Shown: one piece after another, positions 4,218 to 28,400 of the stretch
Numbering within the stretch: the first letter of the stretch is position 1
Layout: every line of letters begins with the position of its first letter
Origin: a virus
Direction: 5' to 3' (one strand)
Virus record (IMG/VR): IMGVR_UViG_3300005613_000156
Location: 1 to 40,371 of that record
Length of the DNA: 40,371 nt
Made by a program: the position numbers and the translations under genes
Notes under the pieces: model-generated
The model's input: only the letters and a program-made list of their open reading frames with translations
What the model was told of the DNA's origin: nothing
Database searches by the model: none

Positions 4218-6317
4218 ATGGCAAATGGAGTAAATCCACCTGAATTAACAGATTTTTGGGAAAAATTTGGTGATTATAGTGACTATATAGAAGTTTCTTG
4301 CGATTTTACAGGCAGTTTGGCCGTGGATGTTTTAAATCATTTTGGTATAGAGACTCGCGGTACTGTTGGTGGTACTCTAATGGACATAGATATAAAAAAT
4401 ATGGATGCTTTAGCAGTAATAAAGCTCTCTCTTTTAGAAGCATCGGCTGATTCAGGTAAATATTATGAGTTTATAATGAGCTCTGATGGTTATGTGGAGT
4501 TTAAAGAAATTGGTAATTATAGTGGTAGTATAAGTGATGTTTATTATTCAATGCAGACATCTAGTTATGTAGAAGAATGTGTAGGAGTAATGGTGACTGG
4601 TAAAAAACCTTTGCCGGAAAGAAAAGTGTTGAATTGGAAGCCAATATGGGGAGATTTACCAGCTTCCGAAAGAATTTATGATACAAGCGACATGATGACT
4701 AATTGTAATATGGATAATTTTTCTGCACATGCTACTATAGTATACAATGATCCACATATTACCCTTGGCACAGATGGGTATGAAGATGGTATAGATAATT
4801 TATTTGAGCATGGTGGTAGCGGCGACGAAGATTTGGGTCCTTTCGACAGTGTTTTGGGTTATGCTAGATGGAAAAATCCTCCAGCGGCTTATACAACTAC
4901 GGATACAGTAATCACTCATCGTGATACTGCTAGTATACCTGTTAGAGTTGATGGTCCTTTTAAACCAGCAGGAGGAGCTGATATAGGAGTTAAATTAGCT
5001 TTACCTCCTACTTTTCCAGAAAACGCTATTGATCCTAATTGTTGGAAGATGACAATGGAAGCTCAGTGGGAAGACGGTGTTGAGGTTTTGATACCGGAAA
5101 GGTTTAGATTTGAAACAGCTAGGGGAGTTACTGTTGATAAATTTGTTGGAATTGAAAAAGTATATCTTATAGGAAAAAAACTATCTCTTCTTAGATCTAT
5201 TCCAAAAGATGATGCTGCGGCTGTAAAAAAAGCATCAGAAATAAATGATGAGGATTTATTGGTGTATGCATCAATAGATGATCCTAATACAGTTATGTTA
5301 GAGTTGGAAAGAGGTCAACATTATGAAGTTGCATATAAAGATGGTCAGCAAGATGTCACAGAGGATGTTACCACATATAAAACTCCTTATCTTGTATTTG
5401 TTGATAATGGGGAATATGGAGATCCTCAAAAATATGGTAATGGTCCCGATAGAACTGGTGTAAGACTTCGTTTTACTGCTAATTGTTCTTATATAGACGA
5501 GAATGGTTTGGAACATCAGTCTGGAGATTATACAGTTTTACCTCTTGGTTCTAGGAATGGTTTCATAATTAATGAGATATGGGCGTTGCTTAATTTAGAA
5601 ACCCCATCAATTACTATTTATGATCCAAATGGTGGTGGTGCTCAATCAGAGTTCGGTGGTATAAATAACCGAGCTTTACTAATTGCGGAGAACTATGATT
5701 ACCAGATTGCTCCTATGGTTATAGTAGATGCCCCACCTCCTATAGGTTATAATGGTAGGTTGATAGATCAAACCCAACATATACAAGATCATGATCCTAC
5801 TACCGCACAGAGTTTTGAAGATACTGATTATAATTTAGCTTTAGATGAAATGAATGGCGGTGGCGGTATGTCTATAAATTTGTCATTTTTGGAGGAAAAT
5901 CAAGTAGTAACTCTTTCAGAAGTATTATATGAATATATGAATAGTCTTGATGGACAAGAAACTGTCTATACATGTGGGCCAGAATGTGATCCAGAATTGG
6001 GTGGTTATGGTCCAAATGGAGGTATAATAAACCAAATAAATTATTCATATGCAGATAGTCAGGCTTATACTATATCTGTTACAGAAGGGCCAAGATTACT
6101 TGGGCAAATGGCTACGATAGGAACTGGTCCATATCCAATTAGAACAGAGTCTCCGTCTATGGAAGGTATTATAACCCAAGATTTAGGCAATCATATTCAT
6201 TTCATGGTTAATTTAGATGCTTATGGAGAAAGAGTGGCTATCAATTGTTGTGAAAAAATATTGCGTGTGGGAGACAGGGTTAGTTGCACTGTACACAATG
6301 CCCCTGTTGAGTCCTAA
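4218..6317 (+). CDS. Probable baseplate hub / tail-tip protein
   Basis: This 699-residue protein starts at an ATG 14 bases after the tape-measure stop, behind AAGGAG. An early segment (about residues 60-95) has the pattern of a helix carrying ALAVIKLSLLEAS followed by a beta strand with an SSDGYVEFKE turn. That resembles the domain in late-control-D or hub proteins where a helix precedes an 'evaluated at the tip' beta strand. The rest is beta-rich and Gly/Asp/Tyr-rich, ending with RVAINCCEKILRVGDRVSC. Position directly after a tape measure and before a second hub-like protein supports a hub or baseplate-wedge role. No catalytic motif is recognised. The call rests on gene order plus weak motif resemblance, so another tail-tip protein is possible. 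Confidence 0.45.
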   Translation: MANGVNPPELTDFWEKFGDYSDYIEVSCDFTGSLAVDVLNHFGIETRGTVGGTLMDIDIKNMDALAVIKLSLLEASADSGKYYEFIMSSDGYVEFKEIGNYSGSISDVYYSMQTSSYVEECVGVMVTGKKPLPERKVLNWKPIWGDLPASERIYDTSDMMTNCNMDNFSAHATIVYNDPHITLGTDGYEDGIDNLFEHGGSGDEDLGPFDSVLGYARWKNPPAAYTTTDTVITHRDTASIPVRVDGPFKPAGGADIGVKLALPPTFPENAIDPNCWKMTMEAQWEDGVEVLIPERFRFETARGVTVDKFVGIEKVYLIGKKLSLLRSIPKDDAAAVKKASEINDEDLLVYASIDDPNTVMLELERGQHYEVAYKDGQQDVTEDVTTYKTPYLVFVDNGEYGDPQKYGNGPDRTGVRLRFTANCSYIDENGLEHQSGDYTVLPLGSRNGFIINEIWALLNLETPSITIYDPNGGGAQSEFGGINNRALLIAENYDYQIAPMVIVDAPPPIGYNGRLIDQTQHIQDHDPTTAQSFEDTDYNLALDEMNGGGGMSINLSFLEENQVVTLSEVLYEYMNSLDGQETVYTCGPECDPELGGYGPNGGIINQINYSYADSQAYTISVTEGPRLLGQMATIGTGPYPIRTESPSMEGIITQDLGNHIHFMVNLDAYGERVAINCCEKILRVGDRVSCTVHNAPVES

Positions 6318-10282: not shown

Positions 10283-11260
10283 ATGGCTATAAACATTGAT
10301 ACACAAGATTTAGAAAACTATCCTGGAACTGTAAAAAGAGTTACTGTTGATCAAGATAGTATAGTGCCTACTGGAGAAGAAGGTGATGAAAAATATGTAT
10401 TCAAAACATCTACAACTGCTTATAGTGATAACACGACTAATGCTGCTATTCAAGATTTATACGTAACATATTTTAGAGGTGGTTGGGCCAAAAGTTCTGG
10501 ATTTGCAGGCAGCGGCGGTAAATTTAATCTTGATGCGACGCATTATAATCTTAAAGTTAAAATAGATAGTACTGTAAGCGGCACTGATGGAAATGGGTAT
10601 TATACTGTATCCTTAGATTATAATGTTGATGAAACGCCAATAAGTGGTGAAGCCATTGCTGCGGATATGGAAACTAAAATAAGAGCACTTACTATGGAAA
10701 CAGCTGATACAGGCTATGCTTTGGCTTATAGAAATTGTTCTGTAGAATATCAAAATGGAAAATTTTGGATAATTTCTGGAAGTCTTAGCAGATATTATAC
10801 CGGCTCCACTAAATCATCAGTTAGGGTTGCAGCAGCAGCCACTAATGATTGTAGTGTAGAATTAGGATTTGATTTACCATTAGAGACCGAGATTATGAGC
10901 GCTGTATCTATTAAAGAAGCCGCTTTGGGAGCAAATTATACAGCAGATACTACTCCGCTTACTATTGGTGCTGGAACTGGTGTTGTGGCTGGTGATTGTA
11001 TGATGATTACAGATGGTACTAATACTGATTATTTTACAGCTCTAAATGGTACTACAGATACTAGTGTCGTTGTACCTGTTAGTGGGACAAATGGTTTTGT
11101 TGGTATATCTAATAGTTATACTACGGCTGCTGGAGCTGTTGTCCAGAAGTTAAGACGGCAAGATCCTGAGGGCGAACCAACATTGTATTATACTGATATA
11201 GATACTATTGTTAGATTTGGTATAAAAACTATGGTCAATCAAATAGATTATAGTTCTTAA
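10283..11260 (+). CDS. Structural protein with hook-IN-like beta domain
   Basis: This 325-residue protein starts at ATG behind AAGGAGGA. Residues about 81-205 follow a pattern seen in flagellar hook IN domains and some phage tail proteins: paired strands, a short helix (EAIAADMETKIRAL), a Tyr/Ala strand, then FWIISGS, a Ser-rich turn, SVRVAAAA and VELGFDLPLETE. The same pattern recurs in the proteins at 21430-22980 and 31360-39321. The rest is Thr/Gly-rich beta sequence ending in a more ordered tail (YYTDIDTIVRFGIKTMVNQ). A tail or decoration protein is likely. The family link is by pattern and not confirmed. Confidence 0.5.
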   Translation: MAINIDTQDLENYPGTVKRVTVDQDSIVPTGEEGDEKYVFKTSTTAYSDNTTNAAIQDLYVTYFRGGWAKSSGFAGSGGKFNLDATHYNLKVKIDSTVSGTDGNGYYTVSLDYNVDETPISGEAIAADMETKIRALTMETADTGYALAYRNCSVEYQNGKFWIISGSLSRYYTGSTKSSVRVAAAATNDCSVELGFDLPLETEIMSAVSIKEAALGANYTADTTPLTIGAGTGVVAGDCMMITDGTNTDYFTALNGTTDTSVVVPVSGTNGFVGISNSYTTAAGAVVQKLRRQDPEGEPTLYYTDIDTIVRFGIKTMVNQIDYSS

Positions 11261-11271
11261 GGAGATAAACG

Positions 11272-11778
11272 TTGGCACAGTTTTTAGTAAGAAATAGTTT
11301 AAATCCTAATAAGGTTGTGAGGCTGGGGATAACTTTTGAGCAACTTGTACCTAAAGGTTATGAAGGTGGATATATTTGGTTAGTAGAGATTGCTACTAAT
11401 GAACCTCATAAAGATGGAGGTACAATACCGCCGGAATTTATAAATTTAACTAGCTTGGATAATTTAGACGAGGAAATACAAAAAGTTGTAGAAGTTATTT
11501 CTGCTAAAGTTGATTGGACTCCGCTTGAAGAAGATATAAGAGCACCAATTGTAGAATCTTGTTATCCATCTGACTATATTGTGGATATAGAGACTAATAT
11601 CTCAATAGTTATCAAGGATTTGTTACCGGCTGCTGGTATAGATACAGACAGTATACAGATGGTTATTACTACAGATAGTGAGGATTTTGATGTTACGTCG
11701 GAGCTTGATATAACTGGTGATCCTTATGAATATACAGTTAAGTGGAAACCATTTATGAGAGTTTATGGTGCGTATTAA
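11272..11778 (+). CDS. Structural protein with partial C-terminal Ig-like domain, TTG start
   Basis: The 168-residue product begins at TTG, 11 bases after the previous stop, behind AAGGAGAT; no ATG exists near the 5' end. Residues 1-88 are a mixed domain of unknown type. From about residue 90 the sequence (PIVESCYPSDYIVDIETN, then ISIVIKDLLPAAGIDTDSIQ) aligns with the Ig-like repeat in the 918-residue protein (SPSREQANVAIDSNIYYEVK, DDGAGVDIDSLEMTVN). It stops after YTVKWKPF, before the last two strands expected for such a domain. The thiamine-enzyme-like pair follows 12 bases later. The domain may be truncated or completed by another chain. Confidence 0.55.
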   Translation: MAQFLVRNSLNPNKVVRLGITFEQLVPKGYEGGYIWLVEIATNEPHKDGGTIPPEFINLTSLDNLDEEIQKVVEVISAKVDWTPLEEDIRAPIVESCYPSDYIVDIETNISIVIKDLLPAAGIDTDSIQMVITTDSEDFDVTSELDITGDPYEYTVKWKPFMRVYGAY

Positions 11779-11790
11779 AAGGAGGATATT

Positions 11791-12276
11791 ATGGTCAAGG
11801 CAAAGGATTTCTGGAGTTACTTATGTGAAGAATTAGATTATAGGTTTTTTGCTGGGGTTGTTTGTGAAGGATTAAAACCATTGTATGACACTATGGATAG
11901 TAGATTCATGCATTATATACCCGCTGTGAATGAGAAAGTTGCTTTAGGTTTGGTTAATGGCGCAAGAATTGCCGGTGTGAAAGGAGCAGTTTTAATGAGT
12001 GCTAATTATTTACTTGATGTTTCAAACTCATTAATTTCATTTAACAAACAATACGAAGTCCCAGCATTAATTATATGTTATGATGAAGAATATTATTGGT
12101 CAAAACATAATTCAATTGTATCATTATTGTTAGCCCATTTTAAAGTTATGAAAATTGATGATGATATAGAAGAGCCTGATTATACATTCGAAGATAACAT
12201 AAATATTGTTGTGAAAGGTGCCGAAGAGGAAAACAGACCTGGAATATTATTTATAGGAAAGGAGGATTTAGAATGA
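11791..12276 (+). CDS. ThDP-binding decarboxylase alpha-like subunit (phosphonopyruvate/sulfopyruvate decarboxylase family)
   Basis: This 161-residue protein matches the N-terminal (PYR) half of phosphonopyruvate and sulfopyruvate decarboxylases, which bind thiamine diphosphate (ThDP). In order: FFAGVVCEG (residues 19-27; family GVPCS), AVNEKVALGLVNGARIAG (45-62), with Glu48 in the place of the ThDP-activating Glu, then VLM (67-69), and SNSLISFNKQYEVPALIICY (78-97), matching the family 'N.L.SL...Y.iP.l'. The usual QNSG after VLM is replaced by SANY, and the RGEPG-type loop is YDEEYYW. Length matches a stand-alone alpha subunit such as ComD. It overlaps the next gene by 4 bases (ATGA), so the two are coupled. 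In active relatives the pair decarboxylates a 2-oxo acid; the substrate here is unknown. Confidence 0.72.
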   Translation: MVKAKDFWSYLCEELDYRFFAGVVCEGLKPLYDTMDSRFMHYIPAVNEKVALGLVNGARIAGVKGAVLMSANYLLDVSNSLISFNKQYEVPALIICYDEEYYWSKHNSIVSLLLAHFKVMKIDDDIEEPDYTFEDNINIVVKGAEEENRPGILFIGKEDLE

Positions 12277-12908
12277 AGAGATACACAACAGTAAAAAAAT
12301 TTTTATCTGTTTTAAACAATAATGATATAGCTATATTTGTTGGTCAAAATCTGTGCGAAGAAGCATTTAAATATGATAGAGAAGGCAGTTTTTATCTATT
12401 AGATGTCAATGAGCTTCATTCTTCATTAGCTCTTGGCGTAGCAATGTGTACTGACAAAAGAGTGTTTGTGTTTTGTAATGATGGTGATTTTTTAAGAGAG
12501 ATCGGTTCTGCTGCTCAGATGGCTGTTAGTAGATGTAGTAATATATTTTACGTTGTATTAGCCACAGGTTTTTACCAGTTTGCTGGTGGACAGCCAACTA
12601 TTTTCAATGAGTTTCCCGCTTCTAAAACTGTTTTTGCTAATTTAGGATTTTTGGTGAACGATTATATAAATTATTTTGAAGAGGGTAAGGCAGGAATGAA
12701 ATCATTAAAGGTTTATTTAGAGCGAATAAAAGGTCCTATGGCTATAATAATGAGATTAGAAAAGGGTATTAGAAAAAATGTTAGGGAAGAAATATCTTAT
12801 TCTAAACAGGAATTAACTGATAGAATAATGAAATTTATTAGTGATGAAAGTTTGGGTACATCATTATATATAAAACCTTCTAATTTATTCTCTAATATGG
12901 AGGGATAA
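12273..12908 (+). CDS. ThDP-binding decarboxylase beta-like subunit (phosphonopyruvate/sulfopyruvate decarboxylase family)
   Basis: This 211-residue protein matches the C-terminal (PP) half of the same enzyme family and starts inside the alpha-like gene's stop (ATGA). SSLALGVAM (50-58) corresponds to 'ALGiAl'. CNDGDFLREIGS (68-79) corresponds to DGDGxLLMNLGS and keeps Asp70 as possible Mg ligand, with NDG instead of GDG. VVLATGFYQFAGGQPTIF (94-111) corresponds to LDNGxYGSTGGQPT; GGQPT is kept but the DN pair is AT, so the usual Asn metal ligand is Thr98. Together the two chains (372 residues) equal one full-length family member. The last 60 residues are Lys/Glu-rich helix. It may be an enzyme with altered cofactor geometry or a pseudoenzyme. 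Its position between fibre genes is unusual. Confidence 0.72.
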   Translation: MKRYTTVKKFLSVLNNNDIAIFVGQNLCEEAFKYDREGSFYLLDVNELHSSLALGVAMCTDKRVFVFCNDGDFLREIGSAAQMAVSRCSNIFYVVLATGFYQFAGGQPTIFNEFPASKTVFANLGFLVNDYINYFEEGKAGMKSLKVYLERIKGPMAIIMRLEKGIRKNVREEISYSKQELTDRIMKFISDESLGTSLYIKPSNLFSNMEG

Positions 12909-12913
12909 TTTAA

Positions 12914-14134
12914 ATGGCTTATGAAAATATAACATTACGAAAACGAAATGTCGTCATGGTAGATGGTTATTTCTATATGTTTGATGAGGATACTGATAGT
13001 TTAATTGTCAAGACCGATGATGGTACACAGGCATATTCATATCCATTAGATACTACTATTACTAATCAAATTGTCAGTTTGGAATACGATGGTAGAAATT
13101 TCTGGACTTTAGAAAATTTAGCAGGTAATGATATTACAATTAGAAAATGGTATTTGGATAACTATGTTTGTAAATTAAGACAGACATTTAGTCTTATAGA
13201 AACTGGTTCTCATAAATATGAATCCAACGCATTTACTGTTGAGCATTATCATGTAGAATTTAGTAGCCCAGAAGCTGCCGGTCAGACTACTTTAAGTATT
13301 ACAGATGGGTCTAATCTATCAAGCGGAATGACTATTACTCTTGGTCCTAATTCAAGTGGTCAAATAGAAGAACGCACCGTTAACTCTGCTGGACCAGATT
13401 GGGTAAATATAAATGGCACTACTTCGTATGCATATGATACTGGTGATCCAATTGTTTTTTTCACTAACCTTTGGATATTTAATGACTGGGATGGTTTGAA
13501 TCAGACAGGTGCATTATATAAGTTTAGTGCTTATACTGGTTCGTTAGTAACTAAGTATTCTGGTGGTGCATACCAGGACATTGAAGCTTGTACTTTTTAC
13601 GATATGTCAGATGTTTACGGCTCAGGGTCGGAAGCTATATGTTATATTAAAGCTACTAATTGTATATTTTTAGATCCAAGCGATTTAAATAATAGTTTTG
13701 GTTCAATGGTCATGGATAACGTAGAAGATGATCAAGCTACTGTTATTAATATTTACGATTTAACTATAGAAGGTACCAATGTTTATAGGCTTCAATTAAA
13801 AGCTACCTATTATGGAACTACTTATACTTTTGCTAACAGTTCTTACAACTATCAGCTTTCAACGCTGGATGCATTTATAACCAGTATTAGTTTAAGTGCT
13901 AATCCTGCTATTTTACCTGCTGACAGCGTAACTACTAGTACTATAACCGCTATAGTTAAAGATCAGTTCTTACTACCTATAGCAAGTAAATTAGTTTATT
14001 TTACAGACGATGATGCTGTTGGTTCTATTGTAACATCTCCTGTGAGCACTAATGCACAAGGAGTAGCAGTAACAACATATATTGCTGGAAACCAAGCACG
14101 AGAAGTAAGAATTACTGCGACAGCGCAACAATAA
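12914..14134 (+). CDS. Fibre/decoration protein with C-terminal Ig-like (Big_1-type) domain
   Basis: This 406-residue protein begins MAYENI, as does its downstream neighbour, and the two are clear paralogues: both contain VEHY near residues 110-125, a 'TLGP' turn, and a YKFSAYTGS/FKINAYSGN strand. Residues 1-310 look like a beta-propeller- or beta-sandwich-like region. Residues about 321-406 form an Ig-like domain of the invasin Big_1 kind (ITSISLSANPAILPADSVTT; TITAIVKDQFLLPIASKLVY; NAQGVAVTTYIAG). Such domains stack to extend fibres or bind carbohydrate weakly. A strong AGGGA site precedes the ATG. Likely a tail fibre or surface decoration subunit. Confidence 0.6.
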   Translation: MAYENITLRKRNVVMVDGYFYMFDEDTDSLIVKTDDGTQAYSYPLDTTITNQIVSLEYDGRNFWTLENLAGNDITIRKWYLDNYVCKLRQTFSLIETGSHKYESNAFTVEHYHVEFSSPEAAGQTTLSITDGSNLSSGMTITLGPNSSGQIEERTVNSAGPDWVNINGTTSYAYDTGDPIVFFTNLWIFNDWDGLNQTGALYKFSAYTGSLVTKYSGGAYQDIEACTFYDMSDVYGSGSEAICYIKATNCIFLDPSDLNNSFGSMVMDNVEDDQATVINIYDLTIEGTNVYRLQLKATYYGTTYTFANSSYNYQLSTLDAFITSISLSANPAILPADSVTTSTITAIVKDQFLLPIASKLVYFTDDDAVGSIVTSPVSTNAQGVAVTTYIAGNQAREVRITATAQQ

Positions 14135-14147
14135 TAGGGAGATTTAG

Positions 14148-16904
14148 ATGGCGTACGAAAATATTCAGATACAATATCCTAATTTTTGTCATGGTCCACA
14201 AGACGGAACGTTTTGTACTATTAATCAGGATGTTGCTACTACCATAATGCGTGTTAAAACATCTGCTGGTGGATTTATAGCAGATTACACGTTGTCATCT
14301 AATATTATAAATGAGCTGCTGCATTTAGAATATGTAGGCCCTATGGATTTGACTGGAATGTTAGATGGATTAACTTTTTTTACTGTGGAGAAAGTAAATA
14401 ATACTACAGTAATAATAAAGAGGTGGGAGTCAAGGCCTAGTTCTAACCAGTTGAATTTGAAGCAGCAGATTATAAAGTCTAATACAGGTAGTTACTATTA
14501 TGATATAAATAGTGCGGCAGTGGAGCATTATAGAAGAACATTTTCAGACAGCTTGCCGGCCGGTAGTAATTATGTGGAGCTAAATTCTACAAGCAGGATT
14601 GCTTCTGGAACAAAATTACTTTTAGGCCCCAGTACCGATGCTGATAATATAGGAGATTATGAATATGTTACAGTGAGTTTTGTAAGCGGAAACAAAGCGT
14701 ATCTGACTTCTAATTTAGTTTATGATTATGTGTTGGGAGATGGTGTTTGTTTTTATACCCATGTTTACTTATATAGTAATATAGGTATAGGTGGAGATGC
14801 TTCAAGAGGAACCCTATTTAAGATTAATGCTTATAGCGGAAATGTAGATGACACAAATACGGATAAGGTCTATCAAAACATAAGTGTCGCCAGATGGTAT
14901 GAAGCTACTGCTTCGGTTGCTTCTATAAGTGATAATAACATGCTTTTTGTAAGCCCCTACAATTCATATTTAAATTGGAAATCTATGTTCATGAATAATA
15001 TAGAAGATAATAATTATGATATGTTTGAACTTCATGATGTAGTGTTTGAAGATTACGCTGTTTTGAAACTTATGAATAAGATGACATTAAGAGATGATAA
15101 CGGTAATAAAACTACCTATGATTGGGGAAGTTGGTATAATTATAGACAAGATACAATTCTTCCTTATACTAATAGTATACAGATATATACAACTAAGTCT
15201 TTTATGATAGGAGCTAATGATACTACTACTTTCTATATAAAAGTTATTGACCAGTTTGGTGTTGGTCTAAGAGACAAAACTGTTAATTTATATTTAGACA
15301 GCGGTGATATAGCCGCACAATTCAATCCTACTAATGGACAGGTTATTACTGATATAAATGGAGAAGCTACTGTTGGATATACATCTGGTTCTTCTTATAC
15401 TGGAGTTACGGTTATAACTTGTAGAGTTGATGGTTCGTCTGCTCTTACTGGTAGTCAGTATGTTTGGGATAGTATAAGGATTTATAGTGAGATAGATGTG
15501 GATCCTCCTGTAGAAACTAAATTATTTCAATTAAAAGAAGTAGAAAGTGTTAATAACAATTTGATAAAACAAGTTGCAGAGGATGTTAGTATTTCCATAG
15601 CTATGTTTGGCAGAACATTTTTTACAACTCCAGGCGGAGATTGGATAAACCCTTGTACAGGCAGTTTTGATGTTGAAGATTGGATACCTGGATTAGTTAT
15701 TGGAGAAAACGATTGCCCGAATGCAGCTAATGGAGGTGGAATGTCACCGGGTGGTCCTCCTTTTGATGATGCAAGTTTGTATAATATGAAACCAAACCAA
15801 ATAACTCAAGTTTTAGATTTTGAAAGTGAATATCCGATGTATCAAGTAGGAAGTTTTAAAGTGAAAGGAAAGGAATGGCAAGATCCTCCTGGACAATGGG
15901 TTGATGTTTGGACTGAGCCCTATTTCTCTATGTATCAAAAAGAAGAATCTGGAGAAATGACATTTAGCCAACTAAAAGTTAGCACTCATACTTATTGGTT
16001 GGAAGGAACTGCTTATGATGAATTATGGACGCACACTGAATTAGACCAGTTTGTGTTTGTTGAAGATGCCATACCTAAATTCTGGAGTGAGAAGAACCCT
16101 AAAAGTACTAATATTTGGATTAGACTAAGGCCTTTTGCTTATAGTTTGAACGCTCTTAGATTGACATATCTTGTGAGAGAAGTTTGGTATGGTGGAGATA
16201 CTAATTACGTAAACGTGACTTCTCAAGTAGCTTATCAATATTTTGATGCGGGCGGTGGTATATTGGGTGTTGAGTTAACATATAATCCTACACAAGATTT
16301 TCACCATAATTCAGTTGTTTATATACACATAGAGATATATGATACTGCGTTTATTGCCAACAAAATAACTACAAGCTATTGGTTTACTATTATACCAGAT
16401 TATAAAAGCCCATATCTTGAGAATTTAAGTCCGAGCCGAGAACAAGCTAATGTGGCTATAGATTCAAATATTTATTACGAGGTTAAAGACGATGGTGCTG
16501 GTGTTGATATAGACAGTTTAGAAATGACTGTTAATTCTAGAAGAGTAGTGCCTACAACTATAACTAGGATTACAGACAACCATTATGCAATTAATTATAT
16601 ACCATCTAATAACTTTTATTATGATAAAAGAATTACGGTGTCTGTGAAAGTTAAAGATACAAGTGATTTTGAAAACTGGTTAAATGATAGATATTCGTTT
16701 TATACCGCAGAAAGTGATGAGATACTTTTTACAGCATTGGAGCCAGGTATGTGTAAAAAAGGATTACCAAGATTTCAAGATGTTTCGTTTGTTGCATTAG
16801 GTATTGGCAGCGGAATAGATAGAAGCACTTTGAGATTACAAGTGCACGATTATGATGTAACAGATGACTCACAAATTGTTCCGATTATTTATAGGATAAG
16901 TTAG
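14148..16904 (+). CDS. Large fibre protein with Big_1-type and tandem Ig-like domains, last domain incomplete
   Basis: This 918-residue paralogue of the preceding protein keeps the same N-terminal 330 residues in outline. A Big_1-type domain lies near residues 341-445 (FYIKVIDQFGVGLRDKTVNL; DINGEATVGYTSG). A spacer with a Gly/Pro-rich stretch (NGGGMSPGGPPFDDASL) follows. Then come Ig-like repeats: one near 655-750, one near 754-855 (SPSREQANVAIDSNIYYEVK ... RYSFYTAE), and the start of a third (FVALGIGSGIDRSTLRLQV) that ends after about half its strands. The stop is 8 bases before an HNH endonuclease gene, which suggests the 3' end may have been lost or replaced. Probably a tail fibre or tip protein. 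Confidence 0.6.
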   Translation: MAYENIQIQYPNFCHGPQDGTFCTINQDVATTIMRVKTSAGGFIADYTLSSNIINELLHLEYVGPMDLTGMLDGLTFFTVEKVNNTTVIIKRWESRPSSNQLNLKQQIIKSNTGSYYYDINSAAVEHYRRTFSDSLPAGSNYVELNSTSRIASGTKLLLGPSTDADNIGDYEYVTVSFVSGNKAYLTSNLVYDYVLGDGVCFYTHVYLYSNIGIGGDASRGTLFKINAYSGNVDDTNTDKVYQNISVARWYEATASVASISDNNMLFVSPYNSYLNWKSMFMNNIEDNNYDMFELHDVVFEDYAVLKLMNKMTLRDDNGNKTTYDWGSWYNYRQDTILPYTNSIQIYTTKSFMIGANDTTTFYIKVIDQFGVGLRDKTVNLYLDSGDIAAQFNPTNGQVITDINGEATVGYTSGSSYTGVTVITCRVDGSSALTGSQYVWDSIRIYSEIDVDPPVETKLFQLKEVESVNNNLIKQVAEDVSISIAMFGRTFFTTPGGDWINPCTGSFDVEDWIPGLVIGENDCPNAANGGGMSPGGPPFDDASLYNMKPNQITQVLDFESEYPMYQVGSFKVKGKEWQDPPGQWVDVWTEPYFSMYQKEESGEMTFSQLKVSTHTYWLEGTAYDELWTHTELDQFVFVEDAIPKFWSEKNPKSTNIWIRLRPFAYSLNALRLTYLVREVWYGGDTNYVNVTSQVAYQYFDAGGGILGVELTYNPTQDFHHNSVVYIHIEIYDTAFIANKITTSYWFTIIPDYKSPYLENLSPSREQANVAIDSNIYYEVKDDGAGVDIDSLEMTVNSRRVVPTTITRITDNHYAINYIPSNNFYYDKRITVSVKVKDTSDFENWLNDRYSFYTAESDEILFTALEPGMCKKGLPRFQDVSFVALGIGSGIDRSTLRLQVHDYDVTDDSQIVPIIYRIS

Positions 16905-16912
16905 GAGGGTTT

Positions 16913-17665
16913 ATGAAGATTTGTTGGGATAATTTAGAAGGAATATATTTAACGAAAAATGGTATTTTTATCAAGGGTTTTAATAGTTACGTTGAAAAAG
17001 AAAAATGTATAGAATGTGGAGAATCATATTTAACACCCAAAACTAGACAAAGTGATTTCTGCGACCGTTCTTGTGCTTTAAAGAGAAGAAAATTTTCAGA
17101 AGAAACAAAACAAAAAATGGTTAGGGCGTGGAAAAAGAGAGGGCCTGTTTCAAAAGAAACGAGACAAAAAATGTCTGCTGTACGTAAAGGTTTGTTGATT
17201 GGAGAAAGGAATGGTATGTATAAAAAAATCCATTCTGATGAAATGAAAAGAAAGATGTCTCGTAGAATGAAAGGTAATAAATATAGATTGGGTATCAGTC
17301 ACTCAGAAGAAGTTAAGAGGCACTTATCTATTATTAATAGGGGTGAATTAAATGGTAATTGGCAAGGCGGAATTTCTTGCGAACCATACTGCTACGAATG
17401 GTCTTTTAAAGATTTTAAAGACATGATAAAAGAAAGAGATGGAAATAAATGTATGAACCCCGATTGTCTGGGGAATTCGTGTATGTTAGTTATTCATCAT
17501 ATTGATTATAATAAAAAGAATTGTGATCCCGAGAATTTAATAACTTTATGTAATTCGTGTAATTCCCGTGCAAATGGAAATAGAGAATGGCACGAGTCGT
17601 GGTACAAAGCTATAGTAAATAGGAGGTATTGTAATGGCTATCCCTACAATCAGTTTTCTTTATAA
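16913..17665 (+). CDS. HNH homing endonuclease with NUMOD3-type repeats
   Basis: The product is 250 residues. A zinc-binding module C32-x2-C35 / C50-x3-C54 is followed by helical NUMOD3-like DNA-binding repeats (SEETKQKMVRAW; SKETRQKMSAVRKG; HSDEMKRKMSRRMKG; SEEVKRHLS). The HNH nuclease lies at residues 175-220: C180/C185, the catalytic HH at 195-196, Asn208 and C213-x2-C216. These are free-standing homing endonucleases that cut DNA lacking their gene and so spread between related phages. The 3' end overlaps the next gene by 32 bases and supplies that gene's ribosome site. High Lys content differs from the structural neighbours. All expected catalytic residues are present, so it is probably active. 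Confidence 0.9.
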   Translation: MKICWDNLEGIYLTKNGIFIKGFNSYVEKEKCIECGESYLTPKTRQSDFCDRSCALKRRKFSEETKQKMVRAWKKRGPVSKETRQKMSAVRKGLLIGERNGMYKKIHSDEMKRKMSRRMKGNKYRLGISHSEEVKRHLSIINRGELNGNWQGGISCEPYCYEWSFKDFKDMIKERDGNKCMNPDCLGNSCMLVIHHIDYNKKNCDPENLITLCNSCNSRANGNREWHESWYKAIVNRRYCNGYPYNQFSL

Positions 17666-18287
17666 TAAAAGTTCAAATGATGTGGCATACACGGGAGTGG
17701 GGGCTGCTGATGTCAACTATAATGTAATAAACATAAACTCAGACAAACTAATTTTTTCAGGCGGAGGAATAGATGATTCTGTACTCACAACCCCTACGTG
17801 TGCAAGCGGCACTAGGTCACCTACAATACGTCCTTCTGTTTCAAGTTATGTTATACCCGAGACATATGTAGAAGATTCATCTGTGATGACACACATTCCA
17901 TTGGTAGGACATAATGCTAATCGTTATTGTATGGCAGTGTACGTAAATGGCACAGCGAGTTCGGATCTTTATTTGGAAGCGTGGGATTCTTCGGACTTTA
18001 GTACAACAAATCTACCAGTTCTTCAAGGCTCTGCTAACAGTTCAAATGAGAGTTATGTTAATGCAATACGAACAACAGACCAGGTAACCCCTATTTATCC
18101 ATGGAATGGCGGTAGTGGTTCTTACGGGTCTGCCTATTTAAGAGGAACAAGTGATAGGACACCGTTGAAGGGAACTTCGCCTATAGCTAACGAGGCACTT
18201 TATTTTAATATTTATATCCTCCTTCAGACGGATTCGTCTACATTTTTTAATCAACCAGTGTTGGCGTTTCGATATCTCTACACATAA
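17634..18287 (+). CDS. Structural protein, paralogue of the protein at 19101-19778
   Basis: This 217-residue protein starts at an ATG inside the 3' end of the HNH gene, behind AGGAGG. It is Ser/Thr/Asn-rich and probably all beta. The C-terminal half (LYLEAWDSSDFSTTNLPVLQ ... FFNQPVLAFRYLYT) matches in layout the protein at 19101-19778 (CRLTAWDDVTHSTTLNEIIS ... DFVIVLHYSYT): the same AWD turn, similar length and aromatic end. The pair probably forms related surface or fibre subunits. No enzymatic motif is seen. Confidence 0.5.
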   Translation: MAIPTISFLYNKSSNDVAYTGVGAADVNYNVININSDKLIFSGGGIDDSVLTTPTCASGTRSPTIRPSVSSYVIPETYVEDSSVMTHIPLVGHNANRYCMAVYVNGTASSDLYLEAWDSSDFSTTNLPVLQGSANSSNESYVNAIRTTDQVTPIYPWNGGSGSYGSAYLRGTSDRTPLKGTSPIANEALYFNIYILLQTDSSTFFNQPVLAFRYLYT

Positions 18288-18296
18288 GGAGTAACT

Positions 18297-18635
18297 ATGA
18301 CCAACTTATATTATTATAAAGCAGATGTAATTAAAGTATACGATGGAGACACTATAACTGTGAATATAAGTTTAGGTATGGGTGTGTGGTTGTATAAACA
18401 GAAGATTAGATTGTATGGTATAAACGCCCCAGAAATGCGTGGACCAGAAAAGGTAGAAGGAAAGAAATCAAGAGATTGGCTTCGTGAAAGGATTCTTGGT
18501 AAAGAAATAATTTTAAAAACTATAAAAGATAAAACAGGAAAGTATGGCAGACTTCTTGGCGAGATTTGGTTTGAGAATGAGAATATTAATGATCTTCTCG
18601 TAGAAAATGGAATGGCTAAAATAGCTATATATTAG
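18297..18635 (+). CDS. Staphylococcal-nuclease-like (SNase/TNase) protein
   Basis: The 112-residue protein is essentially one SNase domain. YDGDT lies at 15-19, RLYGINAPE at 38-46 with Arg38 and Glu46 in the place of catalytic Arg35 and Glu43, GRLLGEIW at 84-91 with Arg85 in the place of Arg87, and NINDLLVENGMAKI at 96-109. Asn43 replaces the Asp usually seen in the metal site (RLxGIDAPE), a change common in this family. No signal peptide is visible, so it would act in the cytoplasm or as part of the virion. A small DNA- or RNA-cleaving enzyme is likely. It sits among structural genes and near several homing nucleases. Confidence 0.88.
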   Translation: MTNLYYYKADVIKVYDGDTITVNISLGMGVWLYKQKIRLYGINAPEMRGPEKVEGKKSRDWLRERILGKEIILKTIKDKTGKYGRLLGEIWFENENINDLLVENGMAKIAIY

Positions 18636-23095: not shown

Positions 23096-24208
23096 ATGAA
23101 TTTAATTGAATATATTGATTTTTGTAAATGTGGTTGCGGTGAAGAGGTAAAGGAAGGCAATTTATACGTACATGGTCATAATAGGCGTGGATTAGCAAGT
23201 TATACACATGGCGATAGATGGTCTATGAAACACGACAAATGTGTGGTGTGTGGAACTATGAAAAGGAAACATGTCGGTAATGGTTTATGTATAAAATGTC
23301 ATAAGGCATGGAGATATGAAATTAAAAAACAAGAAGAAATTAAAAAGTGGTCGAAAAAATATGATAAATGTATAGATTGTGGTAGAACAGATAGACCCCA
23401 TCAAGCTAATGGTCGTTGTGGTACTTGTCATGTGAATAATTTAAATAGACAAAAAGGGGTACAAAAAAGAAATATAGGTGCTTGGTCTTGGTATTATGAT
23501 AAATGTCAGAAATGTGGAACTACAGAGAGACCTCATGCTGCTAGAGGGTTGTGTGTTGATTGTAATGAAACATCAAGAAGAGATTTATCAGGTGGTTGTG
23601 AAATATGCCCAGTGTGTGGTGTAAAGGTTATTAAATTAAATCAACATATGTCTATGAGAGCTAAAAAATGTGAAGGTCATAGAACATATCAGCGTGATTT
23701 GTTTAAAATGTATTTTAAAAGTGATTTAGGATTAGATGATATAGCAAAAGAATTAAAGACGGATAGACACACTATCACCAGAAATTTCAACAAGCTTTTT
23801 GGTAAAAAAGAAACTGAAAAACGCAATCAGAAAGTTAAAAGTTGTCTTTGTTCTGAAAAGGCTGCTATAAACTATAATCCAAATAATAAAAGAGGAACCA
23901 TAGTATATTATAATTCATTAAGTAATGGTAAAGTCAGGTTTAGATCTAAGTTAGAAAAACAATTTGCAGAATTTCTTGACAGGTCTGGAGTCAGGTGGGT
24001 CTATGAGCACAAATCATTTCCTTATATTGATAAAAAAGGAAAACGAAGGACCTACACTCCAGATTTTTATTTTGTAGACGAGGATAGGTATATTGAAATA
24101 AAAGGATATAAAAAAGATAGTGATGAGTATAAAGTAAATACTTTAATAAAAGCAGGTATAAATATAAAAATGATAGGAAAAGGAGAATTCGAAAATGCCG
24201 TTATATGA
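23096..24208 (+). CDS. Zinc-ribbon array plus HTH plus PD-(D/E)XK endonuclease (homing-type)
   Basis: The product is 370 residues. An N-terminal CKCGCGEEVKEG ... HGHNRRG module is followed by three similar zinc ribbons: C49/C52/C65/C68, C92/C95/C108/C111 and C137/C140/C153/C156. Each has the layout 'W...yDkC..CGt..r.H.a.G.C..C'. A C2H2-like finger (C171/C174/H184/C192) and a helix-turn-helix (about 205-235, LGLDDIAKELKTDRHTITRN) come next. The C-terminal 280-370 is a PD-(D/E)XK-type nuclease core: Glu287, TPDFYF with Asp323, and IEIKGYK with Glu334 and Lys336. The many DNA-binding modules joined to a small nuclease fit a homing endonuclease. It overlaps an FmdB-type gene by 14 bases. Confidence 0.82.
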   Translation: MNLIEYIDFCKCGCGEEVKEGNLYVHGHNRRGLASYTHGDRWSMKHDKCVVCGTMKRKHVGNGLCIKCHKAWRYEIKKQEEIKKWSKKYDKCIDCGRTDRPHQANGRCGTCHVNNLNRQKGVQKRNIGAWSWYYDKCQKCGTTERPHAARGLCVDCNETSRRDLSGGCEICPVCGVKVIKLNQHMSMRAKKCEGHRTYQRDLFKMYFKSDLGLDDIAKELKTDRHTITRNFNKLFGKKETEKRNQKVKSCLCSEKAAINYNPNNKRGTIVYYNSLSNGKVRFRSKLEKQFAEFLDRSGVRWVYEHKSFPYIDKKGKRRTYTPDFYFVDEDRYIEIKGYKKDSDEYKVNTLIKAGINIKMIGKGEFENAVI

Positions 24209-24368
24209 ATTTGAATGTAAAGAATGTAATATTAATATAGAGATGCTTCAAAAAATGGACGAGAAGACGCCTAACTGCCCCGTGTGTGGACGATCTATGG
24301 TTAGGGTTATGTCTACTACTACTTTTATATTAAAAGGTAAGGGGTGGTTTAAAAGTGGGGGGTATTAA
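24195..24368 (+). CDS. FmdB-family-like zinc-ribbon protein (57 aa)
   Basis: This short gene starts at ATG 24195, inside the 3' end of the nuclease gene, behind AAAAGGAGAA, and ends in TAATG overlapping the next start. It encodes MPLYEFECKEC at the start, CPVCGRSMVRVMS in the middle and TFILKGKGWFKSGGY at the end. That is the full layout of FmdB-type regulatory zinc ribbons, with C8/C11 and C28/C31 as zinc ligands. These small proteins are common in bacteria and phages; the role in phages is unknown. Its tight coupling on both sides to nuclease genes is notable. Confidence 0.9.
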   Translation: MPLYEFECKECNINIEMLQKMDEKTPNCPVCGRSMVRVMSTTTFILKGKGWFKSGGY

Positions 24369-25138
24369 TGGGATTACTTTATATAATTAAAAATAATATA
24401 AATGGGAAAAGATATATTGGAAAAACTACAAAGAATTTAGATGAGAGGATTAAACAACATTTTAATTGTATTAGTAGTAAGGTAAATAAGTACCATTTAC
24501 ATTATGCCATAGAAAAATATGGATGGAATAATTTTTCTGTTGATTCTTATTCTTTTACTAATGAGTTGTTAGACTATATGGAAAAGGAATTTATTAAAAA
24601 ATTTGATACTTTTAAAAATGGATATAATATGACAATCGGCGGAGAAGGATCTGCTGGTAGAATAGTATCGGAAGAAACGCGCAAGAAACAATCTAAGGTT
24701 GCAAAGATAAGATTTAAGAAGCCAGAAAACCATCCAATGTATGGAGTTAGAAAATTTGGGGTCAATAATTCATTTTATGGCAGAAGACATTCTAAAGAAT
24801 CTAAAGATAAAATGAGTAGGTCTCAAAAAGAAAGATGGGTTGGCGAAAAACACCCTATGTTAAATAGAAAACATTCTGAAAAAAGCAGAAAGAAAATGTC
24901 TGCATCACGAACTGGGGAAGGCAATCATATGTTTGGTAGAATTGGAGACAAACATCCATGTGCAAAGGAATATATAATTATTTTTCCTGATGGTAAAGAA
25001 AAACTTATTTGTGGTCTATGCAATTTTTGCAGAAAGTATAATCTGGATGGTAGTGCCATGATAAGAGTAGCTAAGAATATACAAAAGAAACACAAAGGTT
25101 TTAGGTGTGTTTATAAGGAGGGGCATTCATGTGTATAA
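24368..25138 (+). CDS. GIY-YIG homing endonuclease with NUMOD3-type repeats
   Basis: This 256-residue protein starts at the A of a TAATG overlap. The GIY-YIG nuclease occupies residues 1-95: LYIIKNNINGKRYIGKT with YIG at 16-18, catalytic Arg27 in LDERIKQH, HYAIEKYGWNNF, Glu72 in DYMEKEFIKKFDTF, and GYNMTIGGEG. Residues 100-200 carry NUMOD3-like helical DNA-binding repeats (SEETRKKQSKVAKIRFKKPE; HSKESKDKMSRSQKERW; HSEKSRKKMSASRTGEGNHM). A C-terminal domain with YNLDGSAMIRVAK may be a further DNA-binding helix-turn-helix. All main catalytic residues are present. It is a free-standing mobile element, the second clear homing nuclease in this stretch. Confidence 0.92.
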   Translation: MGLLYIIKNNINGKRYIGKTTKNLDERIKQHFNCISSKVNKYHLHYAIEKYGWNNFSVDSYSFTNELLDYMEKEFIKKFDTFKNGYNMTIGGEGSAGRIVSEETRKKQSKVAKIRFKKPENHPMYGVRKFGVNNSFYGRRHSKESKDKMSRSQKERWVGEKHPMLNRKHSEKSRKKMSASRTGEGNHMFGRIGDKHPCAKEYIIIFPDGKEKLICGLCNFCRKYNLDGSAMIRVAKNIQKKHKGFRCVYKEGHSCV

Positions 25139-25437
25139 AAAGGGGATGGAGTGTGGAATACGCAGACGGTACTAAAATAAATGAGAATCAAATGGAGTGG
25201 AAGAAATTACCTAAAGTAGGAATTATAAGACTTACACTACACTATGATGGAAAGTGTTGGGACATACACGATAAATCAGCATATGTTCAAAAGAAAAGAG
25301 CCTCTGTAGTTCCAGGCGTCGCAGAAAGCTTTGTTATTGAATCGCGTTCAATAGGTTATTATGAAGGAAATAAAAAAGTTTGGTATACAGTTGATGAATT
25401 TACAGGCCAAATGAAAATGGAGGTTACAGATCTTTAA
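25129..25437 (+). CDS. Small protein, related to the protein at 18645-19088
   Basis: This 102-residue protein starts at ATG 25129, inside the GIY-YIG 3' end, behind AAGGAGG, and its stop overlaps the next start (TAATG). WSVEYADGTKINENQMEWKK, an HYDGKCW strand, AYVQKKRASVVPG and IESRSIGYYEGNKKVWYTV give a small mixed-strand fold. The same layout is seen in the protein at 18645-19088. The function is unknown. Close coupling to the 1829-residue gene suggests a role with that tail protein, for example as a chaperone or cap. Confidence 0.55.
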   Translation: MCIKRGWSVEYADGTKINENQMEWKKLPKVGIIRLTLHYDGKCWDIHDKSAYVQKKRASVVPGVAESFVIESRSIGYYEGNKKVWYTVDEFTGQMKMEVTDL

Positions 25438-28400
25438 TGACTATAGACTCAAGAACATATTATGATGAACATCAAGCAGACCCAAGATCTGTATTTGAGG
25501 ATATAGAAGCAGGTATTCGTATTGATCCAATATATTCTTGTCAGTATTTTATTAAAGGATTATCTGGACTCTGTAAATATTGGGATACATCTACAGATAG
25601 ATGTATATATGATACCACTGAAAGTAGTCCTAGTGGATATAATGCTGGTAATTGTGATTATCTTGGCAGAAGAACTACTTGTGATAAATATGAGTGTAAA
25701 ACTATAACAGATCCAGATACTGGTGAAGAAGTAAATGATGAAGATCTTGAAAAATATTGGTGTATAGCTCCTAATATGTTTCTTTCTGGTTTAGGTAAGC
25801 GTATTAACACTGGCAGTGACGCTCCTTTATTGAGTCCAATACCTAAGTCTGAAATACTAGGATATTGTAACGGTAATTGTGATGGCCAAGGAAGAGGCAC
25901 TGGGTGTGGTGGTGAGCCTGGTGTTACTCCTATTATATGTAGTTATTATAGGCCGTTTCAATTAGGTTTTGGAGCAGATGAGCCACACCAATTAGAATAT
26001 GAGTATGTTGATGATCGTGTAGTAATAAAAGACGAGGCTTTAGAAAACGCTTATGCTACTGCTGGAGATCCTCTAGGTAGTAGGTTACCTTTTTCTTTTA
26101 AACTCTATAATCTAAGAGCATATATGCAAAAATGTGCTTATTGGGATAGTGATTATGGTTCTAGATTTGAAGTAAATACTACTGTTTCTGGTGCCTGTGT
26201 TAGGTTAGATGTTACTCAAGATCCATCGGTTTTGTGTACTTGTACAGAGGAAGCTGCCAGACCTTATTCTACTTATGCTACTGAAGCACCTGGCGGAATT
26301 ACTGCTTGGTTATTAAAAGATGTATGGTCTGATGCAAATACAGTTATCTGTAACGGTGCAAAACCAGAATGTCCTTGTTATACTGGTAAATGGAATTATT
26401 TAAACGATGAAAAAATGTTGGAGGGAATGCGTATTACTGCTGCACAGGCTTTAGAGTTAAGATTTTGGACTTCTGATTGGGGAAGTCAAGAAGAGTATGA
26501 TTTATTTTTTACTGAAATACCTAATTTTCAAGATGCTGCAAGAGCATTAATATATACTTATACTTCATTAGAGCGTATGTCTACTCCAGATGAGAGCATT
26601 ATGAAGGGTAAGAAATATGATATGTGTATGCCAGCGCCTATTAATCATAAAGAGTTTATACTTGAGGATTATGTAGAAATTTCAGATTATACTTATCCCA
26701 GATTAGGTATTGATCCTGGTACTACTGTTCCTACCGAAGGGCAAGTATATTATCCTAATTTAATAAGAGATCCAGATGTAGCCTCATCATATATACGTCC
26801 TTTAGACATCATATATCCCTACTTTAGTTTATCCCCTTTTGAAGAAGCCATTTGTGAGGACAGAGATATACCTTTTTGTGTTAAAAGAGGTTGTTTAATG
26901 GAAAATGATTCATTGTCTGTAATAGGTTCAACTGTTAGAAGGTCTACAGTATATGCTTTGAATTTAACTGCTTTTCAAGATATAGATTACATGGTGCCAG
27001 AATTATTAACGCATTGGACTGTTTCTACTATATCAGATGTTCGTAATGTTAGTACTGATAATGATACTATATATGAAGGGTTTAGCCCCAAAGAAAAATT
27101 TTTTATGCGTATCCCTGATTTTTTGGCAGAGTGTTATAAGATAAACCCAATGTTTATAACAGAAGGAACAGCTGATGATTATGGATTTTTTAAACTTGAT
27201 TCTATTAATATAATGTATCAACAAAGAAATGTTATAATTATATTTGTTCTCTATTCTGATAATACATGGGATTTTAGAAAGAGACCTGTTTGGGGACAAT
27301 GGTATGGAGGTGTTGTAGTACAAGATAGTTTTAATTATGAAATTGAGTCAAGAACTTTAGATACACGACCAATAGCTTTTAATGGTGCTGAAATTACTGG
27401 TAGAATGCTTCCTTTTACAGCGCCAGCTTCTGAGCACCGTGTATCTCCGCTTTGTTATTCATATGATTTGATTTCATTTGCTTCGAGTTGTGTGACTACT
27501 GGTAGTGATTTTTCACAATATTGGAAATATGGATATTGTATCAAAAAGATAATTGTTAGTGACGAACAGGTAGACACGTGGGGGCGTATAGGAAATACAA
27601 GTAAAATTTGGGTAGACATTACACAAGATACAAATTTAAACCATATATTTGAATGGGATGTTGATAGTGCAAAAATGATATTTGTAGTTGAAAATACTAC
27701 TGTTTGTGGAGATAGTATTGAGGTAGAAATGGAGGTAGAATCTATAGAAGCTTTTGTTTCTGGTAATCTTAGTGTGACTCCAACTGCTCGTATCTTAAAA
27801 CCAGTAGATGATTCTAAAAAATTTGGATTTTTTAATAGTGACTGGATTTTGAGGGTTACATATTGGTACAAATCTTTCAGTAATACTGATGAAATTGAGG
27901 ACAATGAAGAAATAGTATTTCCAGATTTTGAAAACCCTCTTTATTCATTCAGAGGTCCTTCTTTTATTATTGAAAGAGATACTAATTTATTTACTATTTC
28001 TAATATAAGATGGGATACTGTTGCAGTGATGGGATATTTTAACAGCGAAGATGGTAGATTAATTAGTTGTATGGCTACAAAAATGCTTACACAAGTAGTA
28101 ACTCTTGATTGTAGAAATGTGGACATTAAATATAGTTATGCTGCCGATGCTATTGGATATAGAATAATGCCTGAAACTTCTGCATCTACTCTTGCTACAA
28201 TTAGATCGCCCGATCTTCAATTTGAAGTTCCTCCTCTTTCATATGCTCCTCCATGTGGAGATCATGAGGGGCCTAGAATGTGGTATCCGTTTAGTTCCTG
28301 TGAGCAGATGGAATATTATCAAGAATTTGCTGGGGGAGCTTGGTGTACTAATGCATATCAAGATACTCCAAGAGATGATTTAAGATTTTGCACTCCACCA

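Follow-up and report, generated by a model that had tools for sequence, protein, structure and literature searches.

The window analyzed here, IMG/VR virus record IMGVR_UViG_3300005613_000156, is a stretch of 40,371 bases in which nearly all genes lie on the plus strand and are arranged like a module for late structural proteins. The last part of a tape-measure-like ORF of great length is followed by a conserved gene for a 699-aa protein (4218-6317), hub- or baseplate-like by its position, then by several small tail-like genes, a conserved 325-aa tail-module gene (g325; 10283-11260) and a 168-aa gene (g168; 11272-11778). Downstream of g168 lie two genes, alpha (11791-12276, 161 aa) and beta (12273-12908, 211 aa), which were identified from their ORFs, profile matches and folds as a PYR-domain (ComD/RhiE-like) chain and a PP-domain (ComE/RhiF-like) chain, respectively. 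Beta starts inside an ATGA overlap with alpha, and each gene has the ribosome-binding site aaggagg, located immediately upstream of the alpha start and, in the case of beta, within the 3' end of alpha. Next come a fibre-like gene (12914-14134) with a C-terminal Big_1/invasin-like Ig domain and its larger paralogue, a second fibre-like gene (14148-16904); all the genes named here are on the plus strand.

An earlier, sequence-only reading of this DNA had described an ATGA-coupled pair of split thiamine diphosphate (ThDP) decarboxylase genes, with 5-12 base spacing to the neighbours and a total length equal to one full enzyme. Both ORFs were recovered at the same positions, the gaps are 12 bp before alpha and 5 bp after beta, all of the quoted motifs (GVVCEG, NEKVALGLVNG, VLM, ALGVAM, NDGD and FAGGQPT) are present, and the two chains sum to 372 aa, compared with 360 positions in the Ppd model. 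The statement that the pair lies between Ig-domain fibre genes holds on the downstream side, where the Big_1 match (E = 3.1e-8) falls slightly below the Pfam cut-off, but not on the upstream side, where g168 has no significant Pfam match. A PHROGs search with the pair and its neighbours gave no useful name.

The pair is homologous to the PYR and PP halves of phosphonopyruvate and sulfopyruvate decarboxylases, with a similarity far past chance. Alpha matched the phosphonopyruvate decarboxylase model TIGR03297 (E = 2.9e-9), the sulfopyruvate alpha model TIGR03845 (1.2e-8) and the PDB sequence 9iz3_A (1.2e-7), and beta matched TIGR03297 (1.9e-12), the sulfopyruvate beta model TIGR03846 (4.8e-12) and, over the Pfam cut-off, PF02775 (1.9e-5). 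The NCBIfam scores amount to about 1/10 to 1/4 of the curated cut-offs (36.4 and 46.9 bits versus 312.5 for TIGR03297, 35 versus 147.95 for TIGR03845, and 46.2 versus 221.5 for TIGR03846). AF2 models of the single chains, with 12 phage sequences as the input alignment, reached a pLDDT of 87.6 and a pTM of 0.86 for alpha, and 84.4 and 0.85 for beta. The best Foldseek matches in the PDB were both from RhiEF (9iz4_A for alpha, E = 8.5e-9; 9iz3_B for beta, E = 4.3e-10), and the second-ranked fold match of both chains was AzcB/AzcC (9u8q). The profile matches of both halves, together with the predicted PYR and PP folds, place the pair in the ThDP superfamily and bear out the split alpha/beta ancestry proposed from the letters of the window. 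A frameshifted or split single-chain Ppd was considered and rejected, because the split is common to the whole phage family and to cellular RhiEF/ComDE.

RhiEF, a phosphonopyruvate decarboxylase, is a heteromer in which one chain corresponds to the PYR domain and the other to the PP domain (PMC12141560). The protein from Bacillus subtilis ATCC 6633 (PDB 9IZ3/9IZ4) resembles the phage pair in having PYR and PP chains encoded by adjacent genes, and it is the top match for both phage chains in sequence as well as in fold; however, it retains all ThDP and substrate motifs and belongs to the rhizocticin cluster, whereas the phage pair retains few of these motifs and belongs to a tail module. Domain order and sizes are also shared, at the level of remote homology, with ComD/ComE and the single-chain AepY/Ppd (TIGR03845/TIGR03846/TIGR03297), but the phage pair scores far under their curated cut-offs and lacks GDG-N, QNSG and RG. 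AzcB/AzcC, a ThDP-dependent alpha-imino acid decarboxylase whose structure, by its entry title (PDB 9u8q), is that of an enzyme, is likewise a split ThDP pair, with a weaker fold match than RhiEF.

No match was obtained when either chain was used as a query in a protein search of 50,697 annotated phages, and scans of viral contigs with one protein or a 3-row alignment retrieved two relatives only (L001 and L002). Further relatives were reached with neighbouring genes, including g325, as bait and with larger alignments. The bait search yielded 12 non-redundant phage contigs including the window, in all 12 of which alpha and beta occupy the same place among the tail genes, and wider scans added five (L084, L088, L089, L096 and L097), for a total of 17. 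Both halves co-occur in every one of these contigs and one chain alone in none, and the ORFs are intact throughout. This survey of phages for the pair beside tail genes confirms that it belongs to a conserved structural operon, as the sequence-only reading had suggested. The pair-carrying phages are uncultured and large: their contigs reach 189 kb, and tape-measure-like ORFs of 5,290 aa (401-16273 in L023) and 5,528 aa (34-16620 in L035) closely precede the module. If these ORFs are tape measures, they would imply a very long tail. One contig that was read gene by gene encodes terminase, DnaB, RecA/UvsX and clamp genes. A g325 search of 84,980 bacterial and archaeal genomes found no relative, and thus neither a prophage nor a clue to the host; tRNA genes, sought as a host clue, were not found, and a plasmid search with alpha gave no match.

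Two gene orders are equally frequent among the phages. In eight contigs the order is g325-g168-alpha-beta-fibre, as in the window, and in eight it is g325-alpha-beta-g168-fibre, so that g168 lies upstream or downstream of the pair but never more than two genes away from it. The orthologue of the fibre-like gene at 12914-14134 comes after the pair or after g168 in the compared phages. In L007 (10001-14741), two copies of g325 flank the pair (g325-alpha-beta-g325'-g168-fibre), likely a remnant of a tandem duplication through which one order could have given rise to the other. The pair has shifted by one gene while always staying in the g325/g168/fibre neighbourhood. In L087, the nearest relative of the window, another ORF (MPYKISGYKTDTARIIILKESDW...) follows g168 where alpha should begin (17499-17763), and the contig ends about 260 bp after g168; the pair may have been replaced there, or the contig end may cut the view. 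The slot beside g168 may be a place where different accessory tail genes can insert.

In two more distant lineages (L093 and L095/L099), g325, g168 and the fibre gene are joined directly, without the pair, and the 699-aa protein is about 30% identical to that of the window. A beta search over the rest of these three contigs (104-234 kb) gave no match. In the marker tree, which was built from the 699-aa hub protein and g325, a 100/100 branch separates the no-pair lineages from all pair carriers, and in the tree of the pair itself a 100/100 branch splits the 17 phage rows from 19 cellular rows. The phage copies thus form one clade against the cellular copies. The marker tree is most simply explained by gain of the pair on the stem of the ingroup; loss in the outgroup is also compatible with it.

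The 19 cellular homologues, single-chain or split, were drawn from genomes of Bacillota, from plasmids of several phyla and from a single fecal contig, and they served as controls for the active site. Fourteen positions that are nearly invariant in these homologues were chosen by motif. The cellular proteins retain 10-14 of them, the phage proteins 1-7 (with L001 and L006 at 7 each), and the window 4. Among all cell-conserved positions, the phages retain 54% at other sites versus 24% at active-site positions, with a permutation p of 0.014 that is indicative, as the active-site set was picked by motif. The catalytic Glu of the PYR domain is present in all 19 cellular homologues and in 12 of the 17 phages, including the window, where alpha Glu48 (11932-11934) aligns with the ThDP-activating position. 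The diphosphate/Mg motif GDG-X(24,27)-N is broken in the window: beta 69-71 reads NDG (12477-12485), and Thr98 (12564-12566) replaces the Mg-binding Asn. Among the 17 phages the motif is complete only in L006. The first Gly of GDG (beta 69) has been lost in 14 phages and kept in three, and the last Gly is kept in four, whereas the GDG positions are conserved in 18-19 and the Mg-binding Asn in all 19 of the cellular homologues. For comparison, conservation across the superfamily of ThDP decarboxylases is 98% at the first Gly of GDG and 94% at the catalytic Glu51, with Val in the 3% that are glyoxylate carboligases, which function without this Glu (PMC3534367).

The substrate motifs of alpha (QNSG and RG) and the SMG of beta are lost as well. 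In cells, alpha RG is found in 19 of 19, alpha QNSG in 17-18 and beta SMG in 18-19. In phages, the Gln of QNSG and the Met of SMG are retained in none and the Gly of QNSG has been lost in all 17; the Arg and the Gly of RG are kept in one phage each, and no position is retained in more than three phages apart from the Gly of SMG (6/17). The window has neither QNSG nor RG. L006 alone retains GDG...DN together with the Glu, and the substrate motifs are already absent there. In the marker tree as well as in the pair tree it splits off close to the base, and this position, combined with a near-complete site, fits a stepwise erosion after capture. At the other extreme, the active sites of L013, L015 and L016 are nearly erased. 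Judged from these residues, most members of the family probably do not catalyze ThDP decarboxylation.

The loss of motifs is not accompanied by a loss of constraint. Between L013 and L015, dN/dS is 0.30 for alpha and 0.22 for beta, compared with 0.07-0.11 for two neighbouring genes; other comparisons gave 0.27-0.37 where dS was unsaturated, and the values for the pair are 2-4 times that of g325. A dN/dS of 0.2-0.3 in close relatives that are devoid of the motifs indicates that the proteins are under selection, and neutral decay was rejected on these grounds. In addition, the phage proteins have invariant residues of their own. In alpha, C12 and P44 (17/17 each) and W8 (15/17) are not conserved in cells, and F84 (16/17) corresponds to a cellular Leu. 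In beta, S86 (17/17) and C88 (16/17) are joined by R/K75, which is found in 15 phages (non-basic in L006 and L007) versus Met in 18 of 19 cells, and by D44, found in 11 phages versus Gly in cells. D44 adjoins SMG and R/K75 adjoins GDG in the sequence, and one may speculate that a salt bridge between them fills the cofactor pocket.

Homology, fold, synteny, the single phage clade, active-site erosion and purifying selection are computational results, and the reading that we lean towards is that a split ThDP decarboxylase was captured, turned into a pseudoenzyme or a much altered enzyme, and became fixed as a late-expressed heteromer that serves structure or assembly close to the fibres. The ancestral protein would have been a split (alpha/beta) enzyme of the ComDE/RhiEF/Ppd kind, taken up by the ancestor of one large tailed phage clade into the slot between g325/g168 and the Ig-domain fibre gene and then inherited vertically together with the other tail genes. 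Its sites for cofactor and substrate would have been overwritten, with GDG...N broken and QNSG, RG and SMG lost, and the heteromer, made late, would have turned into a structural or assembly protein of the tail-tip/fibre complex. The two chains most likely still form an alpha/beta heteromer, because the PYR and PP folds are kept and the chains always occur together. Gene context, namely late expression, a shared direction of transcription and strong ribosome sites among tail genes, makes a role in the structure or assembly of the tail-tip/fibre complex most likely. The absence of the pair from the outgroups is evidence against a general requirement for tails, as is its faster evolution relative to g325. 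More tentatively, the pseudoenzyme might act specifically as a tail-tip building block or assembly factor, and the phages would then document the transition, with active sites ranging from almost complete in L006 to all but gone in L013, L015 and L016. The earlier assignment to the enzyme family was correct, and of the roles considered at that time, a repurposed scaffold is the best supported.

If this is true, a metabolic heteromer was turned into virion architecture within one phage clade. An enzyme that loses its active site phage by phage, under purifying selection and in a structural operon, is a rare case, and this family offers an order of losses, an outgroup without the pair and a near-intact member. 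With this family, structure determination and proteomics could test whether ThDP enzymes are recruited as virion parts, and to annotate such genes as phosphonate-related auxiliary metabolism would be a mistake. Searches of open-licence papers on phage phosphonopyruvate decarboxylases, phage ThDP enzymes and baseplate pseudoenzymes turned up none that describes a ThDP pair in a tail operon.

Alternatively, the pair could still be an active ThDP enzyme with altered chemistry, which binds Mg-ThDP via D/E70 and T/N/S98 of beta and acts on a different host substrate, in auxiliary metabolism or in the modification of particle sugars. In pyruvate:ferredoxin oxidoreductase, Asp and Thr are the Mg-ThDP ligands. 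Beta 70 is acidic in all 17 phages (15 Asp, 2 Glu) and beta 98 is Thr, Asn or Ser in 15 (9, 3 and 3, respectively), so that binding of a diphosphate ligand or of the metal may persist, which tells against a strictly dead enzyme. The presence of Glu48 in 12 phages and of GDG...DN plus Glu in L006 would agree with residual activity, as would the GEG at the GDG site of L001 and L002, a variant found in a minority of true decarboxylases (the GDG Asp, D444, is conserved at 91% and replaced by Glu in 7% of the superfamily; PMC3534367). Nevertheless, we regard retained catalysis as unlikely in view of the loss of Gly69 in 14 phages, of the Glu in five, of RG in nearly all, and of the SMG Met and the QNSG Gln and Gly in all 17, and because the module is structural, not metabolic. 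Sugar-nucleotide genes do occur on some contigs, but the dehydratase is present on only 5 of 18, and the case for a glycan role of the pair is weak. One large phage, IMGVR_UViG_3300035698_007036, has a sugar-nucleotide and glycosyltransferase cluster (L037 16757 to L038 18020; GDP-mannose dehydratase, UDP-GlcNAc 2-epimerase and glycosyltransferases) beside RecA, clamp and DnaB genes, and its genome also encodes pyruvyl-transferase and FrhB/FdhB domains.

The accessory pattern of the pair, that is, its absence from outgroups, its fast evolution and its shuffled order relative to g168, would also suit a late host-directed protein carried as an accessory gene in the tail operon, for instance one that counters host defences or that pairs with a ThDP enzyme of the host in an inhibitory or dominant-negative way. 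Degenerate subunits could be natural poisons of a heteromer. We assign a low probability to this explanation, since both chains are kept in all phages and always lie between tail genes, outside an early-gene context. A working phosphonopyruvate or sulfopyruvate decarboxylase that makes phosphonates or coenzyme M precursors is very improbable. Its best curated models (TIGR03297, TIGR03845 and TIGR03846) and the nearest solved structure, RhiEF, do point to such enzymes, but scores of 35-47 bits stand against cut-offs of 148-312, the substrate motifs are gone family-wide, and PEP mutase was detected at E <= 0.01 in none of the 18 contigs, which are fragments, compared with 13 of 14 control genomes. 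Together with the loss of most cofactor residues, these results leave little of the phosphonate modification envisaged in the sequence-only reading. That the pair is a non-functional relic of a recent capture, without selected function, is hardly credible despite the decay of the active site, given intact ORFs with good ribosome sites in 17 of 17 contigs, a dN/dS of 0.22-0.37 where measurable, new invariant residues and purifying selection over deep divergence.

For the favoured reading, recruitment of a metabolic heteromer into the tail, partial parallels exist. Dihydrofolate reductase and thymidylate synthase of phage T4 are metabolic enzymes reported as components of the tail baseplate; their folds are unrelated to those of the pair, and they remain active. 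A Foldseek search against viral proteins returned weak hits to split transketolase-like proteins of Campylobacter phages (E = 0.0015-0.016). In phage CP21 (HE815464), CP21_041 and CP21_104 (25189-25767 and 74423-74872) are, like the pair, small split ThDP-fold proteins of a large phage. Inspection by eye revealed SDA at the GDG site of the PP half and a Glu in the PYR half, and CP21_041 adjoins a gp5-like hub gene. In contrast to the pair, they are separated by about 49 kb, annotated as transketolase-like and outside the ComDE/RhiEF lineage. They may represent another phage ThDP-fold pseudoenzyme pair and an independent parallel.

Several further ORFs were observed in the window. An HNH endonuclease ORF (16913-17665; PHROG 1271, E = 4e-7) lies between structural genes; L001 has a homologue at the same site (15054-15761), and L002 has none there. 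Within the tail region, a thermonuclease-like ORF (18297-18635) and two endonuclease-like ORFs, one of a zinc-ribbon type with a C-terminal nuclease (23096-24208) and one GIY-YIG-like (24368-25138), were recognized by eye. Lastly, a 2,653-aa protein (31360-39321) with F5/F8 type C and laminin-G-like (lectin) domains is likely a receptor-binding or decoration fibre.
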